A stretch of DNA of 12,545 nucleotides. Origin: a bacterium (GTDB lineage Bacteria; NPL-UPA2; JAGMAN01). A program made the position numbers and the translations under genes. The notes beneath the pieces were generated by a model, which saw nothing but the letters and a program-made list of their open reading frames with translations, did no database searches and was not told the DNA's origin. The stretch covers positions 1-12,545 of the forward strand of contig JAGMAN010000057.1 of assembly GCA_023130215.1 (NCBI GenBank), in the 5' to 3' direction. Below, one piece after another: positions 1,071 to 6,683 of the stretch (position 1 is the stretch's first letter; each line of letters opens with the position of its first letter).

Positions 1071-2030
1071 ATGAATAAGAGGGACACTTTCATTTTAGTT
1101 GTTCTCACTGCCTTAGGGGTTTTCTTTGCTCCCCTGAGCCATGCTGTATGGATCTGGACTCCGGAGACAAAGAAATGGATAAACCCCAAGTATGCAGTGA
1201 AGGAAAATCCCGAGGAGCAGTTTGCCTGGGCAGAGAGTCTCTTCCAGGCAGAGGACTATAAGGATGCCATTAAGGAGCACCGTAAGCTCATTAAAAACTA
1301 CCCTGATAGCATCTATGCTCCTCGCTCCCAGTATGCCATTGGAGACTGCTGGGAGGCCTTGGGAGAATATCAGCAAGCAGTGGATGAATATCAGAAGGTA
1401 ATTGATAACTATCCAACCAGCGATAAGGTAGCTGAAGTGGTAGAGAGCCAGTACAGGATAGGCAACATCTTCTTTGGAGAGGAGATTAAGAGTAAGTTCA
1501 AGAAAGTCTTCGTAGAGAGCAACTATGAAAAGGCAGCTAAGGTCTATCGATTAGTGATAAAGAATGCTCCTTACAGCTCAAGAGCTCCTGAAGTTCAGTA
1601 TAGAATAGGCTTATGCTATCTTAAAGGAGGTGGCTGGTCTGAAGCTATATCTGAATACGAAAAAGTTATTGAGAACTATCCAGAAAGCCAATTTGTAGAA
1701 AGAGCCTTCTATGAAATTGGTCTCTCTTGTTTCAATCAGTCCCTCTCTCCCCTGTATGACCAGACGATGACTGAAGAGGCATTAAAGCATTTTAAGGAAT
1801 TCAGGAAACGCTTCCCGGAAAGCAGTCTGTCCAAAGAAGTCCAGGGGAAGATAAACTCCTTAAGGGAAAGGAAGGCGGAGAGAATATATAAGATTGGCCA
1901 GTTTTATGAGAAACAAGGGAGCACTGAGGCGGCCGGCATCTACTATCAGGAGATAGTTGATGACTACCCGGATATCAAGTGGGCTCGGTCTGCTCTGGAA
2001 CGGTTAAATGAACTTAAAACCACAGATTAA
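1071..2030 (+). CDS. BamD-like tetratricopeptide outer membrane assembly protein
   Basis: A 319-residue periplasmic protein made almost entirely of TPR-type helical hairpins, with repeats at roughly 47-80, 84-117, 124-166, 173-206, 210-250 and 268-302. Several end in the NYP(D/T/E)S turn typical of BamD/YfiO and YbgF-like proteins. BamD is part of the BAM complex that inserts beta-barrel proteins into the outer membrane. Residues 1-25 look like a Sec signal peptide (NKR, hydrophobic stretch, cleavage after LSHA). There is no lipobox cysteine, unlike classical BamD, so it is predicted to be soluble or held by partners. The segment WIWTPET..KWINPKYAVK after the signal recalls BamD-annotated proteins of uncultivated diderms. 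It overlaps lptE by 23 bases, consistent with one envelope-biogenesis operon. TPR architecture is certain; the BamD function is inferred. Confidence 0.8.
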   Translation: MNKRDTFILVVLTALGVFFAPLSHAVWIWTPETKKWINPKYAVKENPEEQFAWAESLFQAEDYKDAIKEHRKLIKNYPDSIYAPRSQYAIGDCWEALGEYQQAVDEYQKVIDNYPTSDKVAEVVESQYRIGNIFFGEEIKSKFKKVFVESNYEKAAKVYRLVIKNAPYSSRAPEVQYRIGLCYLKGGGWSEAISEYEKVIENYPESQFVERAFYEIGLSCFNQSLSPLYDQTMTEEALKHFKEFRKRFPESSLSKEVQGKINSLRERKAERIYKIGQFYEKQGSTEAAGIYYQEIVDDYPDIKWARSALERLNELKTTD

Positions 2031-2523
2031 CATTTACTTCCTTATCTCCTTCCTTGGGCTCTCCCTGTTTTTAATAGCAGGATGTGGTTATAGTTTCTAT
2101 GCGGGAGTAGTTGGCCTTCAGGCTATCGCCATTAAAAATCTGGAGAATAAGACTTACGAGCACGGACTGGAGACATTAGTCGCTGAGGCGATAAGGGATG
2201 AGTTCATTTTTGACGGAAGTCTGAAAGTGGTGAAAGAACGAGAGGCTGACCTTGGGCTCTCCGGCTCGGTTATTGAATATATCCTTGAACCCCTCACCTA
2301 CGATGAAGATGATAAGGCGGAGGGGTATCGGCTGAAGATAAGGGCTAAACTCACCTTAAAGAATTTGAGTAAGGACGAGACTGTCTGGAAGGATAAGATT
2401 ATAGAGGGAGATGCTCGCTACCTTCTCTCCGGGTCCTTGGCCGGGACGGAGTCTGGAGCCCGGGATGAGGCCTTAAAGGACCTGGCCAAAGAGATCCTGC
2501 GACAGATTATAGACACCTGGTGA
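2008..2523 (+). CDS. lptE: LPS assembly lipoprotein LptE
   Basis: A 171-residue predicted outer membrane lipoprotein. The N-terminus has a hydrophobic signal (residues 9-25) ending in the lipobox I-A-G-C with Cys26, followed by GYSF, the usual start of mature LptE-family proteins. The body shows the family pattern: AIKNLENKTYEHGLE, then a segment with DEFIFDGSLKVV and EADLGLSGSVIEY, and a C-terminal helix with a conserved DEALKDLAKEI segment. LptE plugs the LptD barrel that delivers LPS to the cell surface. The only ATG ahead of the signal is at 2008, inside the end of the TPR gene, suggesting translational coupling; holA starts six bases after its stop. The family is weakly conserved in sequence, but lipobox, length and neighbours agree. 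Confidence 0.85.
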   Translation: MNLKPQINIYFLISFLGLSLFLIAGCGYSFYAGVVGLQAIAIKNLENKTYEHGLETLVAEAIRDEFIFDGSLKVVKEREADLGLSGSVIEYILEPLTYDEDDKAEGYRLKIRAKLTLKNLSKDETVWKDKIIEGDARYLLSGSLAGTESGARDEALKDLAKEILRQIIDTW

Positions 2524-2529
2524 AAAATT

Positions 2530-3519
2530 ATGAATTACCGGGAGTTCACAGGAAAACTGGGAAAGGGCAAAGTAGAACTGATTTATCTCTTCTCGGGCGA
2601 AGAAGACTTCCTGCAAGAGGAAGCTTTAAAGAAATTAAAATCCTATCTCCTCTCTCCGGAGACAGCTAACCTTAACTATCAATTTTTTTATGGAAGGGAA
2701 TCCAGGGGGGGGGAGATTGCCGGGACAGCTTCCACTGCGCCATTTATTTCTGAGAAGAGATTGGTAGTGGTAAAAGAGGCTGACCGCTTACCTGCATCCG
2801 ATAAAGAAGAAATTATAAGGTATGCTCAGGCTCCTTCCCCCTTCACCTGTTTGGTCCTCATGGGCTCCAAGTTTGACCGCAGGGAGAGATTTTACTCCAA
2901 TCTTGTGAAGTCGGGAAAAGAGGTTTCCTTCCAGCCAATTTATGAAAAGGACTTGACTAACTGGATTATCTTCAAGAGCAGGGAGAAGGGAAAGCAGATA
3001 GCTCCCCGGGCCGCCTTTGAGCTTAAGGAGAGGGTAGGTAAAAGCTTGAGAGAGTTAGAGAGTGAACTCTCCAAGCTCCTCATTTATGCTGGCGATAAAA
3101 AGGAGATTGGTGTCCAAGAAGTAAGAGCTCTGGTGGGTGAATCAAAGGAAGTGAAGGCTTATAACTTAACCGAAGCTATCGGTGAAAGACAGAAAGGCAA
3201 AGCTCTTAAGATATTGGGTAAGTTGCTGGATGATGGAAAGAAAGCTCCTGAGATAATCGGGCTGATTGCCTATCATATGAGAAAGATGTCCCGGGCCAGG
3301 GCCAGACTAAATAGAGGAGAGGCACGGGATGAGGCGCTTGAATCTCTTGAGATACCCACCTTCTTATGGAGAAGATTTCTCTACCAGATAAAGAATTTCT
3401 CTCCCCAAAAGCTGAGGGAAAACTTCTACCATCTCCTCCAGGCTGACCTTCAGTCAAAGTCAGGCAGACTAACTCCCCGTTTAGTCCTTGAACTCCTGAT
3501 AATCAAGCTATGCAGTTGA
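2530..3519 (+). CDS. holA: DNA polymerase III subunit delta
   Basis: A 329-residue delta subunit of the clamp loader, which opens the beta sliding clamp and loads it on primed DNA. Family features are the N-terminal LIYLFSGEEDFLQEEALKKL (about residues 17-36), then FISEKRLVVVKEADRLP, LVLMGSKFDRRERFY, a helical middle with SLRELESELSKLLIYAG, EVRALVGES, and the C-terminal collar helices ending in RLVLELLIIKLCS. Length is normal. It follows lptE by six bases with only a weak Shine-Dalgarno, so coupled translation is likely. Codons 59-62 contain a run of nine G. The last 12 codons lie in a 40-bp sequence repeated 1,148 bases downstream. In many bacteria holA sits next to rpsT, as it would here without the intervening gene. 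Confidence 0.95.
   Translation: MNYREFTGKLGKGKVELIYLFSGEEDFLQEEALKKLKSYLLSPETANLNYQFFYGRESRGGEIAGTASTAPFISEKRLVVVKEADRLPASDKEEIIRYAQAPSPFTCLVLMGSKFDRRERFYSNLVKSGKEVSFQPIYEKDLTNWIIFKSREKGKQIAPRAAFELKERVGKSLRELESELSKLLIYAGDKKEIGVQEVRALVGESKEVKAYNLTEAIGERQKGKALKILGKLLDDGKKAPEIIGLIAYHMRKMSRARARLNRGEARDEALESLEIPTFLWRRFLYQIKNFSPQKLRENFYHLLQADLQSKSGRLTPRLVLELLIIKLCS
2705..2713 (+). repeat. G9 homopolymer inside holA
   Basis: Nine consecutive G at codons 59-62 of holA (Arg-Gly-Gly-Glu). The frame is intact at this length and the protein is full length. Such runs are prone to replication slippage and to sequencing error, which matters in an essential gene. Confidence 0.9.
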
Positions 3520-3523
3520 GAGT
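3484..3523 (+). repeat. Direct repeat, left copy, of the holA/rpsT junction
   Basis: This 40-bp stretch matches 4632-4671 at 35 of 40 positions by hand alignment; the rightmost 30 bp match at 29 of 30, and all five differences are transitions. On the plus strand it encodes the last residues and stop of HolA (..LLIIKLCS). On the minus strand it still encodes the last four residues and stop of S20 (LSTA, TAG), although rpsT itself lies 1.1 kb away. It is therefore a duplicate of a junction where holA and rpsT once overlapped tail to tail. Together with the right copy it brackets exactly one gene. Confidence 0.9.
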
Positions 3524-3536
3524 AAGACATGAGATA

Positions 3537-4616
3537 ATGCTTCAGGATAAAATCAAAACAAGGACAGAATTATCCCGTATCTGCCAGGGACTAAAAAAAC
3601 AGCATAAGAAGATAGGATTCACTTCCGGTGTGTTTGACCTCCTGCATGCTGGCCACGTTGACTATTTCCAGCAGGCAAAAAAGTTCTGTGATATCCTCAT
3701 CGTTGGGTTAAATTCTGATGAATCAGTAAAAAAATTCAAAGGTCCGGCCAGGCCAGTCATTCCAGAGAAGGAACGGGCCAGGGTTATCGCGGCCCTGGCG
3801 GCGGTGGACTATATATTCATCTTTAATGAACGAAGGAACAAAAGAAATATCGAAATAATTAAACCGCATTACTATATCAAAGCCGGGGATTACTCACCCG
3901 AACAGCTCACTTCCAAAGAGGTAGTGGAAAGTGTCGGTGGCGAAGTGAAGATGATACCGGTGACCATCAAAACATCGGCTACTGAGATTATCAATAAGAT
4001 AGCTTCAGGTTTCGGAATACAGGCAGATAGAGCAGAAAAAGAAAAGGCGGTGTGTTTTCCCTCCCCACCAAAGAAGACCGCACCGGCTATCTTTCTTGAC
4101 CGTGATGGAACAATAAACCGGGAAATAGAATATCTGCATGAGCCGGAAAAATTTGAACTTTTACCCAATGTGGTAGGCGGGCTTAAAAAAATGCAAGCCA
4201 TGGGCTACAGGATGGTCATCGTCACCGCACAAGCTGGTATCGGGCTGGGTTATTTTTCTTCAGAAGATTTCTACCGGGTGAATAGAAAGATGTTGAAACA
4301 GTTTTCTGATAGTGGCGTGATGATAGACAAAATATATTTTTGTCCACACAGCAAAACCGAAAACTGTAGTTGCCGGAAACCGAATATAGCTCTCCTCACC
4401 AGAGCCAAAGAAGAGCTTAATCTCGACCTATCAAAGAGTTGGACTATCGGGGATAAAACCACGGATATTGAATCCGGCCGACGGGCGGGGACCGGAACTA
4501 TCCTGGTAAAAACCGGTTACGCCGGTAAAGACAAAGAGTTCAAAGCAAAACCTGATTATATTGCTCGTGACTTGCTGGACGCCGCAAACTATATACTCAA
4601 AACCGAAAGGACCTGA
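3537..4616 (+). CDS. Fused D-glycero-beta-D-manno-heptose-1-phosphate adenylyltransferase (RfaE2) and GmhB-type phosphatase
   Basis: A 359-residue two-domain enzyme. Residues 1-157 form a cytidylyltransferase-like RfaE2/HldE C-terminal domain: TSGVFDLLHAGHV with the HxGH nucleotide-binding motif at 37-40, LNSDESVKKFKGPARPV, and KTSATEIINKI. After a linker (about 158-182) comes a HAD phosphatase of the GmhB type. Its features are DRDGTIN with catalytic D188 and D190, motif II Thr230, a zinc site C269-x-H271 and C277-x-C279, RKP (K281), and GDKTTD (D306, D310). GmhB removes the 7-phosphate of heptose bisphosphate and RfaE2 then makes ADP-heptose for LPS core, so the fusion joins consecutive cytosolic steps. 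The motif II loop is TAQAGIGLG instead of the usual TNQSGIARG. I chose the ATG at 3537 because it aligns with family N-termini; an upstream ATG at 3510 lies within the repeat. No strong ribosome binding site is seen. The gene is flanked by 40-bp direct repeats and uses CGN for about half its arginines, against about a quarter in holA, suggesting insertion from elsewhere. Confidence 0.9.
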   Translation: MLQDKIKTRTELSRICQGLKKQHKKIGFTSGVFDLLHAGHVDYFQQAKKFCDILIVGLNSDESVKKFKGPARPVIPEKERARVIAALAAVDYIFIFNERRNKRNIEIIKPHYYIKAGDYSPEQLTSKEVVESVGGEVKMIPVTIKTSATEIINKIASGFGIQADRAEKEKAVCFPSPPKKTAPAIFLDRDGTINREIEYLHEPEKFELLPNVVGGLKKMQAMGYRMVIVTAQAGIGLGYFSSEDFYRVNRKMLKQFSDSGVMIDKIYFCPHSKTENCSCRKPNIALLTRAKEELNLDLSKSWTIGDKTTDIESGRRAGTGTILVKTGYAGKDKEFKAKPDYIARDLLDAANYILKTERT

Positions 4617-4631
4617 GTAATGATTTAGTTT

Positions 4632-4671
4632 GTCCCCGAGTTCCTGATAATCAAGCTACGCAGTTGAGAGT
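4632..4671 (+). repeat. Direct repeat, right copy, of the holA/rpsT junction
   Basis: Partner of 3484-3523. On the plus strand it reads VPEFLIIKLRS then TGA, a remnant of a HolA C-terminus with no holA gene in front of it. On the minus strand it contains the genuine end of rpsT. The single mismatch in the 30-bp core is silent for S20 (GCG versus GCA, Ala) but changes Cys to Arg in the HolA reading. Confidence 0.9.
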
Positions 4672-4925
4672 TTGTTTACCTTCTTAGCCAAACGGGACTT
4701 GCGGCGCCGAGCTGTATTTTTATGGATTACTCCCTTGGAGGCCGCCCGATCCAGAGCCCGGCTAACTTTCACCAGAATAGCCCTTGCCTCCTCACCCTTT
4801 TTAAGGTCAATAGCTCGGCGAAGTCCCTTCAGTAGTGCCTTCAGGGCCCCCTTGACCCTCAGATTCCTGGCATGACGCAAGCCATCAGTCTTTAGCCTCT
4901 TCTTAGCTGATTTAGTTACTGGCAT
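4656..4925 (-). CDS. rpsT: 30S ribosomal protein S20
   Basis: An 89-residue basic protein of normal S20 length that binds 16S rRNA early in 30S assembly. It begins MPVTKSAKKRLKTDGLRHARN and carries the family pattern of two long basic helices, with ALDRAASKGVIHKNTARRRKSRLAKKVNKL near the end split across the helix turn. The ATG is three bases beyond the stop of the upstream membrane-protein gene, and its GGGGAG ribosome binding site lies inside that gene's last codons, so the two are co-transcribed from the promoter near 6740. Its last codons form part of the 40-bp direct repeat. No terminator is apparent after it. Confidence 0.97.
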   Translation of the reverse strand: MPVTKSAKKRLKTDGLRHARNLRVKGALKALLKGLRRAIDLKKGEEARAILVKVSRALDRAASKGVIHKNTARRRKSRLAKKVNKLSTA

Positions 4926-4928
4926 ATT

Positions 4929-6674
4929 TTATTTCTCCCCTACCTGCCCCAGGTTAATTATCTCCCGCACTGTCTGGGCCGGGATAGTCAATTCATATTG
5001 CAGTTCTCCCTCATAGAAAACTCCACTAACAGTTACCCGGGACTGTGGCTTTACATCCTCCCAGTTAATTCCTGTCAGAGGAGAAGGGGCAGACATTTTG
5101 GAAAACACCCCAACAAAGTTCTTGGCCATTCCAAGAAGGGATATCCGCAGTAAGATGCTCCGGTCCTTGTAGGCTGCCTCAGTTGCCGGCTTCCCCCCTA
5201 TGATTCGATCCAGGGCAGCCTTCACTGATGCTGATTCTTCACTTATGCTGTAGACCAGGATGTTGTCCTTACAAGCAAACCACATGTGAATGTCCTGTGG
5301 ATATAAGGAGAGCCTCTCTTCCGAGGCAGAATCCATCATGTTAGCCATAGCATCCCGGTAGCCCTTCAGGACAATCTGTCTTATCTCAATGCCCTGGTGC
5401 ATCTCAGAGGGCCCAGCTTGATAGAGGTTAGAAGGGGCCGTAGTTCCTGAAAGAGTCAGCCAGGGTAAAGCTGCACGATTATAGAGCTCTAAATCGGTAT
5501 AGGCGGCTAAAGCAGCGTCTCCATCGGTGACTTCCATGATGTAAAGGAGGTCAAGAAATGTCCCTGGATTAGCCAGCCAGGAAAAAACATACTCACTACC
5601 TTGATAGGAAGCATACTCCTTCCAGGCCTCTATTAACCCCTTTATTTTTTCTCCCTCTGCCATCTCAGTCCGACTATCCATAAAATCCAGGACACTGGCC
5701 ACACACTCATTGATAGCTGACCTTCCTAACTCGGCGTCATATCGGAAGCCCATGACCATGGGAGCATCCTCCGGCAGATAGCCAAGAAGTGTGAAGGAGC
5801 CAGGCTGCGATACCAGATACTTTCTGAGAGCACTATCCTCCTTGCATTGTATAGAGGTAGTAATCTTTGCCTCCTCGTTATCCAGGTCAAGGGCTAGACC
5901 GAAACTGTTTAGCTGTCCTAAAAGGGCAAGTGCCCCAGATACCTCCAATTCTAACATGGCAGTGATGAGAGAGACAGGCTCGCCCTTAGACTGCCCTGCT
6001 CTCTGAGAGGCCATCTTAATGAAAGGCATAGCCATTTCTACCTTTGACTTTATCTCCGGGGATATCCTCACTAAATTGAGATGAAAGGCTAACTCCGAGC
6101 CAGCAGCAACCTTTGGCCGAAGTGCCTTACCTTCCCCGGTGGCCAGCCTGGCAATGGTTAGGAAATCCTCCTCTTCCTTTGAGATGACCAGGCAGGAAGA
6201 TACGACGCCGCAAGTGGCTTTCTCTCCAGCCCAGTAACGAATGCGACTATAACTCTTTTCGGCACTGCCGGCGAGTTTCTCCTTGATTGTCTTTACAGTT
6301 AAATCCTTATCCTTAATCTGAGCGATTAATGAGCGTCTCCTGAACTTCAGGTCGTGCCAGACCAGGCAGAGACCTCCCTCTGGCTCAAGTCCATAGCCTG
6401 ACAAATCCTCCGGGCTATCAATATCCTCAGTCAACTTCATTCCCTTCATAATATCGCTGAAAATACCTTCCTTCCCTTTCGGTATTCCCATCGCTTCAAT
6501 CAGCCTATCTGATTTTTTAACTGCCTCAGATATGTCCGGTATTGACATAGAAGCAGTAGCTTCCACGGGAATAAGCTCCCCGGGACGCATAACCCGCATC
6601 CTCCTTGTCCAAAGGAAGAATAGCACCAGACCGACAACCACCGCCAAAACAAAAATAAATGCTCCCTTCCTCAT
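4929..6674 (-). CDS. Membrane-anchored periplasmic protein, possibly DUF3352-like
   Basis: A 581-residue protein of unknown function. Residues 5-22 (AFIFVLAVVVGLVLFFLW) form one N-terminal membrane helix flanked by Arg/Lys, so the rest should lie in the periplasm. The mature part has repeated short segments such as VEATASMSIPDISEAVKKS, LSGYGLEPEGGLCLV and LGYLPEDAPMVMGF, reminiscent of DUF3352-type proteins; I regard that match as weak. No catalytic motif is recognised. An in-frame TTG at 6683 directly abuts the ribosome binding site AAAGGAGA (6684-6691), whereas the ATG at 6674 has ideal nine-base spacing, so the ATG is chosen. The gene has its own promoter and is followed at once by rpsT. 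It interrupts the neighbourhood between rpsT and murJ. Confidence 0.8.
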   Translation of the reverse strand: MRKGAFIFVLAVVVGLVLFFLWTRRMRVMRPGELIPVEATASMSIPDISEAVKKSDRLIEAMGIPKGKEGIFSDIMKGMKLTEDIDSPEDLSGYGLEPEGGLCLVWHDLKFRRRSLIAQIKDKDLTVKTIKEKLAGSAEKSYSRIRYWAGEKATCGVVSSCLVISKEEEDFLTIARLATGEGKALRPKVAAGSELAFHLNLVRISPEIKSKVEMAMPFIKMASQRAGQSKGEPVSLITAMLELEVSGALALLGQLNSFGLALDLDNEEAKITTSIQCKEDSALRKYLVSQPGSFTLLGYLPEDAPMVMGFRYDAELGRSAINECVASVLDFMDSRTEMAEGEKIKGLIEAWKEYASYQGSEYVFSWLANPGTFLDLLYIMEVTDGDAALAAYTDLELYNRAALPWLTLSGTTAPSNLYQAGPSEMHQGIEIRQIVLKGYRDAMANMMDSASEERLSLYPQDIHMWFACKDNILVYSISEESASVKAALDRIIGGKPATEAAYKDRSILLRISLLGMAKNFVGVFSKMSAPSPLTGINWEDVKPQSRVTVSGVFYEGELQYELTIPAQTVREIINLGQVGEK

Positions 6675-6683
6675 GATAGCCAA

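Follow-up and report, generated by a model that had tools for sequence, protein, structure and literature searches.

The 12,545-nucleotide stretch of DNA analysed here (the window; contig JAGMAN010000057.1 of assembly GCA_023130215.1) carries a gene for a predicted enzyme of heptose metabolism between holA and rpsT, and on either side of it lies a copy of the short sequence in which these two genes end. How could a single gene enter the junction of two essential, convergent genes, and where did it come from? A first-pass annotation of this DNA had described a 40-bp repeat (3484-3523 and 4632-4671, 35 of 40 positions identical) and had offered two histories: either one gene was inserted and the target junction duplicated, or recombination with a related strain occurred. 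We compared the window's genome (G000) with eight other genomes of the phylum: G001, which is the sister species, and G002 belong to the same genus, G003 and G004 to the same order and G005-G008 to the same phylum. The structure of the window was read from one assembly of this species, which consists of 136 contigs. Coordinates are collected in Table 1.

Table 1. Features at and around the holA/rpsT junction in the window
Feature	Position	Strand	Description	Basis
lptE	2008..2523	+	LPS assembly gene; upstream of holA, same direction	PF04390
holA	2530..3519	+	DNA polymerase III subunit delta; left target gene	TIGR01128, 255 bits
Repeat copy 1	3481..3523	+	holds the working end of HolA with its stop codon; on the minus strand, 16 bp left over from the 3' end of rpsT (LSTA and stop)	repeat, translations, alignment with G001, G002, G003
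Left spacer of insert	3524..3536	+	13 bp between repeat copy 1 and fusion start
HldC (RfaE2)-GmhB fusion	3537..4616	+	inserted gene; alternative upstream ATG at 3510	TIGR02199-like and GmhB-like matches
Right spacer of insert	4617..4628	+	12 bp between fusion stop and repeat copy 2
Repeat copy 2	4629..4671	+	bases 4656-4671 (minus strand) give rpsT its working C-terminus and stop codon; the 27 bp at 4629-4655 are a noncoding remnant of the 3' end of holA	repeat, translations
rpsT	4656..4925	-	ribosomal protein S20; right target gene	TIGR00029
Orphan gene	4929-6683	-	584 aa; between rpsT and murJ	no Pfam or NCBIfam match

The duplicated gene junction

The repeat was confirmed and proved slightly longer than first described. 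It spans 43 bp with 37 identical positions at a spacing of 1148, which is far above chance: in shuffled sequence the best match reached 22/43 on average and 26/43 at maximum, and within the window itself the runner-up site matches at 24/43. On the plus strand, copy 1 encodes the HolA C-terminus LVLELLIIKLCS followed by the stop codon. Copy 2 reads FVPEFLIIKLRS and stop in the same frame and has FVPEF.. where copy 1 has LVLEL... On the minus strand both copies encode LSTA and stop, the C-terminus of S20, and only copy 2 is joined to rpsT. The translations agree with the earlier statement that each copy holds the ends of both proteins, the HolA end of copy 2 being a decayed relic. Between the copies the first-pass annotation had counted exactly one gene with 13 and 15 spare bases; the single gene and the 13 bases hold, and on the right side 12 bases are left when the repeat is taken at 43 bp.

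The first-pass annotation had proposed a comparison of the holA-rpsT interval in related genomes as a check. In 8/8 of the other genomes the two genes are adjacent and tail-to-tail, and no gene intervenes; the interval is interrupted, by gene plus repeats, in the window alone. The two genes overlap by 12 bp in both G001 and G002, in line with the tail-to-tail overlap that had been supposed for the ancestor, and in G003-G008 their spacing ranges from a 48-bp overlap of predicted ORFs (G005, G007) to about 119 bp (G006). The sequence to either side of the insert corresponds to that of the congeners and keeps their gene order (holA, rpsT, murJ, GT, argJ). Judged by gene order across this set, the tail-to-tail arrangement is shown to be the ancestral state.

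The bases of the two copies tell which of them changed. The copies differ at six sites. Copy 1 agrees with G002 at every one of them and with G001 at five, the remaining site having a third base in G001. Copy 2 matches neither congener at any of these sites. Thus, copy 2 is the changed copy; five of its six changes fall in the noncoding 27-bp half, and the remaining one is synonymous in rpsT. Furthermore, the copies have A, C and C in common where both congeners have G, T and T, so that both read ATAATC (for GTAATT) and GCAG (for GTRG), forms that are absent from G001, G002 and G003. Since these bases are private to the lineage and present in both copies, the duplication falls inside the lineage, after its split from the congeners. 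Copy 1 can be aligned to the empty junction of G002 along 42 bp (88%) and to that of G001 along 39 bp (87%). On the pattern of these shared and private bases, we conclude that the junction duplication arose within this lineage and that the unused half of copy 2 decayed.

Two further differences were seen close to the junction. Upstream of holA, a TPR gene and lptE are found in G000 and G003, and other ORFs take their place in G001 (L062, G001:C106, 1405-2810), so the neighbourhood is unstable in the genus. On the other side, murJ is present in the window beyond the 584-aa orphan gene. None of the eight relatives yielded a counterpart of this gene, and the rpsT-murJ gap is only about 156-159 bp in G001 and G002; it is a second gain beside rpsT, with no clear target duplication at it.

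The HldC-GmhB fusion and its near relatives

The inserted gene carries an adenylyltransferase and a heptose bisphosphatase domain with the motifs HAGH, DRDGT and CPHS..CSCR, and scores slightly under the curated cut-offs of TIGR02199 (172.9 of 181.5) and NF006506 (175.6 of 178). From family matches and motifs, the product is predicted to act as heptose-1-phosphate adenylyltransferase and GmhB-type heptose bisphosphatase. A separate HldA kinase gene is present in 9/9 genomes and heptosyltransferase-family genes in 8/9. By family membership, the fusion would therefore supply the bisphosphatase and adenylyltransferase steps of ADP-heptose synthesis. The same two activities are known from the separate enzymes HldC and GmhB, whereas HldE joins a kinase to the adenylyltransferase; here the order in one chain is HldC-GmhB. 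Such fusions are scattered over records from KSB1, Delongbacteria, Dadabacteria, deltaproteobacteria and Woesearchaeota. Those in records labelled Woesearchaeota and Nanoarchaeia (L145, L146, L157, L161) form one supported clade.

Translation of the fusion more likely begins at 3537 than at the upstream ATG, since the former start is common to the G001 copy; the ATG at 3510 falls inside repeat copy 1. The start lies 17 bp past the holA stop, in the direction of lptE and holA. No promoter-like site above chance was found around the fusion. Going by gene order and spacing, lptE-holA is a probable operon in which the fusion now lies downstream, and read-through into the fusion is likely.

The fusion occurs once in G000. 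In G001 it is found at another locus (G001:C16:360-1442), between an ABC ATPase and a 284-aa gene that is followed by truA. DNA identity between the two is 91.7%, and the similarity spans window positions 3534-4618, that is, the ORF only. The fusion was not found in G002 (genome 69% complete), and in G003 and G004 there are only separate, remote matches, each to a single half of it. A gene tree of the fusion had also been proposed in the first-pass annotation. In our tree of 25 sequences the fusions of the phylum come together, those of G006 and G008 being sisters of the G000-G001 pair (support 99/98), and a distant donor found no support there.

Composition points the same way. The GC content of the fusion is like that of its neighbours and its codon use is normal, so that neither gives a signal of foreign origin. 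The arginine codons had been said to differ from those of holA; this is numerically true (AGA/AGG 19/26 in holA, 10/20 in the fusion) and carries no weight, because CGN codons are common in rpsT and murJ as well and GC does not differ. Four-fold divergence of the fusion between G000 and G001 is 0.15 against a median of 0.27. Among the first 24 orthologues this was the lowest value, but among 75 it ranks fifth lowest, which weakens the claim of a strong synonymous outlier. Most orthologues differ more between G000 and G001 than the fusion does, which hints mildly at exchange between these species. Since GC, codon use and synonymous divergence bear no foreign mark, relocation or exchange among near relatives would fit better than recent transfer from a distant donor.

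We also searched for traces of the donor site. In G000, truA lies on another contig (G000:C69) with other neighbours, and the 284-aa gene of G001 was not found in this genome; hence, no excision site was found beside truA. The G001 copy of the fusion has no flanking repeats. The left spacer AAGACATGAG resembles the sequence upstream of the G001 copy, AAGATATGAG, at 9/10 positions (AAGAYATGAG; shuffle p about 0.01-0.03), and by this likeness may be the donor's 5' flank. No convincing similarity was seen between the right spacer and the G001 downstream flank. The best candidates for microhomology or a donor footprint at the junctions, TTTAGT at the right edge and TTGAGAGT in the G001 downstream flank, are within chance.

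Known kinds of insertion and other repeat-flanked genes

The closest known counterpart is insertion with long target duplication (ILTD; Nobusato et al. 2000, Gene 259:99). Papers that discuss it (PMC1643837, PMC3031569, PMC2749054, PMC3154945) trace it to two Helicobacter pylori strains, where it was associated with restriction-modification genes. As presented in these reports, ILTD places a gene in a site that is uninterrupted in a relative, between long direct duplications of the target and with no transposase. The window has the same arrangement: the target is empty in 8/8 genomes, both ends carry a long repeat derived from it and no transposase or integrase is found at the insert. The cargo differs. 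The reported cases are mostly restriction-modification genes of H. pylori, a cargo typical of the first description and not strictly required, whereas the present one is a single LPS-heptose enzyme gene, HldC-GmhB, in an uncultivated lineage. Moreover, the target is the overlap of two essential convergent genes, unlike the targets of the ILTD cases in these sources.

Other kinds fit less well. A transposon would likewise leave a direct target repeat on both sides, but the 43 bp seen here greatly exceed the 4-10 bp duplicated by the IS elements named in PMC3031569, terminal inverted repeats are absent from the insert ends and no transposase was found. Attachment-site integration produces a repeat (attL/attR) across gene 3' ends that keeps the genes intact, as here. 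It differs in that the present insert is a single ORF with neither integrase nor other element genes, and in that the repeat serves two convergent genes. The earlier remark that no transposase is visible stands, as neither an integrase nor any other recombinase was detected among the seven window proteins scanned. We regard the locus as a good, legible member of a known and under-studied kind, atypical in cargo and with strong empty-site evidence.

An automatic scan of sampled G000 and G001 contigs gave seven repeat-flanked hits in 0.82 Mb (six without a likely tRNA pair), and control contigs gave four hits at two loci in 0.82 Mb. Seven against four is not decisive for a genus-specific excess, and the rates are inseparable in this sample. 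Candidate insertions of this kind in the sampled contigs, some of them less clear, include several with AbiE or other toxin-like genes. On G000:C1 (L095) an AbiEi/AbiEii toxin-antitoxin pair lies between 2278-2489 and 4601-4812; these 212-bp segments (203/212) both represent the 3' terminal part of an HMGL-like synthase gene, a part that recurs at the start of contig G000:C11 (L105, 1-133), and in G001 the HMGL-like gene is uninterrupted and followed by prs. The same contig has an identical 52-bp repeat (16-67 and 2644-2695) around a gene pair, one member of which has an AbiEi_2 domain. On G001:C39 (L252) an AbiEii-like gene sits at a pilC-like 3' end with a 98-bp duplication (1061-1158 and 2555-2652), and the left end of the insert carries a hairpin-like sequence that is dispersed over other G001 and G000 contigs. 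An ATPase-like gene on G001:C50 (L303) lies between 40-bp copies (156-195 and 1538-1577) that include the start of the next gene. On G001:C28 (L241) a PemK-like toxin pair stands between a 30-bp relic and a pilM-like 5' part (2905-2934 and 3648-3677), a poor fit to simple target duplication. One might read these loci and the heptose gene as products of an active, general route by which the genus inserts bare genes with long target duplications, independently of restriction-modification cargo, and so builds operons and toxin-antitoxin islands at conserved gene ends. This broader reading is tentative, and we think it rather unlikely to hold.

How the gene may have entered the junction

We consider it highly probable that the locus arose by a single-gene insertion with long target duplication, the gene coming from the same or a closely related genome. 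The empty junction in all eight relatives and the presence of the gene at another locus in the sister species bear out this half of the first-pass proposal. A segment of about 1.1 kb with one HldC-GmhB gene would have entered the holA/rpsT overlap from elsewhere in this genome or in that of a close relative, a near donor being suggested by the second locus in the sister species. It may have been captured where a double-strand break had left long staggered ends, which were then filled in; alternatively, a replication template switch may have copied the gene and returned 43 bp upstream. Either way, 43 bp of the target would have been copied, so that copy 1 still ends holA and copy 2 still ends rpsT. 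An insert in the 12-bp overlap with no duplication would truncate one essential gene. To spare both genes, the duplication would have had to be no shorter than the overlap, and selection would have kept such an event. The fusion, placed behind lptE-holA, would then probably be read from that operon and act alongside the HldA kinase encoded elsewhere. The event is well supported; its enzymology is not.

Three other histories would leave a similar picture. A small circular element consisting of the fusion and a core of about 43 bp could have recombined with the holA/rpsT junction as attB, yielding attL and attR, with the recombinase acting in trans or since lost. In its length and its location at gene 3' ends the repeat resembles attachment cores, and the AbiE pair of G000:C1, with its 212-bp HMGL-like 3'-end copy and another copy on C11, looks like accretion at one site. 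However, apart from its one ORF the insert contains nothing recognisable as part of an element, no recombinase is among the seven scanned proteins, and, given the lineage-private bases in both repeat copies, the core would have to derive from this very genome. We judge such an integration improbable.

The same private bases weigh against the other half of the first-pass proposal, in which exchange with a related strain that already bore the gene at this junction, followed by mispaired recombination, left two junction copies. Low divergence of the fusion (rank 5 of 75) would suit it, but other orthologues are equally low, no relative has the gene at the holA/rpsT junction and both copies descend from one lineage-specific junction. 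Strain recombination as the source of the second copy thus found no positive evidence, and we give it a very small chance. Even less probable is an assembly artefact, a chimera joining two contigs at a shared junction. The source assembly is fragmented, yet the copies differ at 6/43 sites and have diverged as expected of one functional and one relic copy, the changes of copy 2 lying almost entirely in its noncoding half; in addition, the flanks on both sides are collinear with the congeners.

Insertion with long target duplication, the preferred reading, makes this locus a clean example of a known and poorly understood route by which single genes move with no transposase, and here neither neighbour was broken. 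When single genes enter new operons unaccompanied by mobile-element genes, the empty site, a second locus and the footprint are rarely all visible. Since both neighbours are encoded in the target, each base of the footprint is legible: the repeat displays a functional and a decaying half, and it follows from the overlap that the insertion could survive only with a long duplication. The case suggests that insertions with long target duplications extend beyond restriction-modification genes and beyond Helicobacter.
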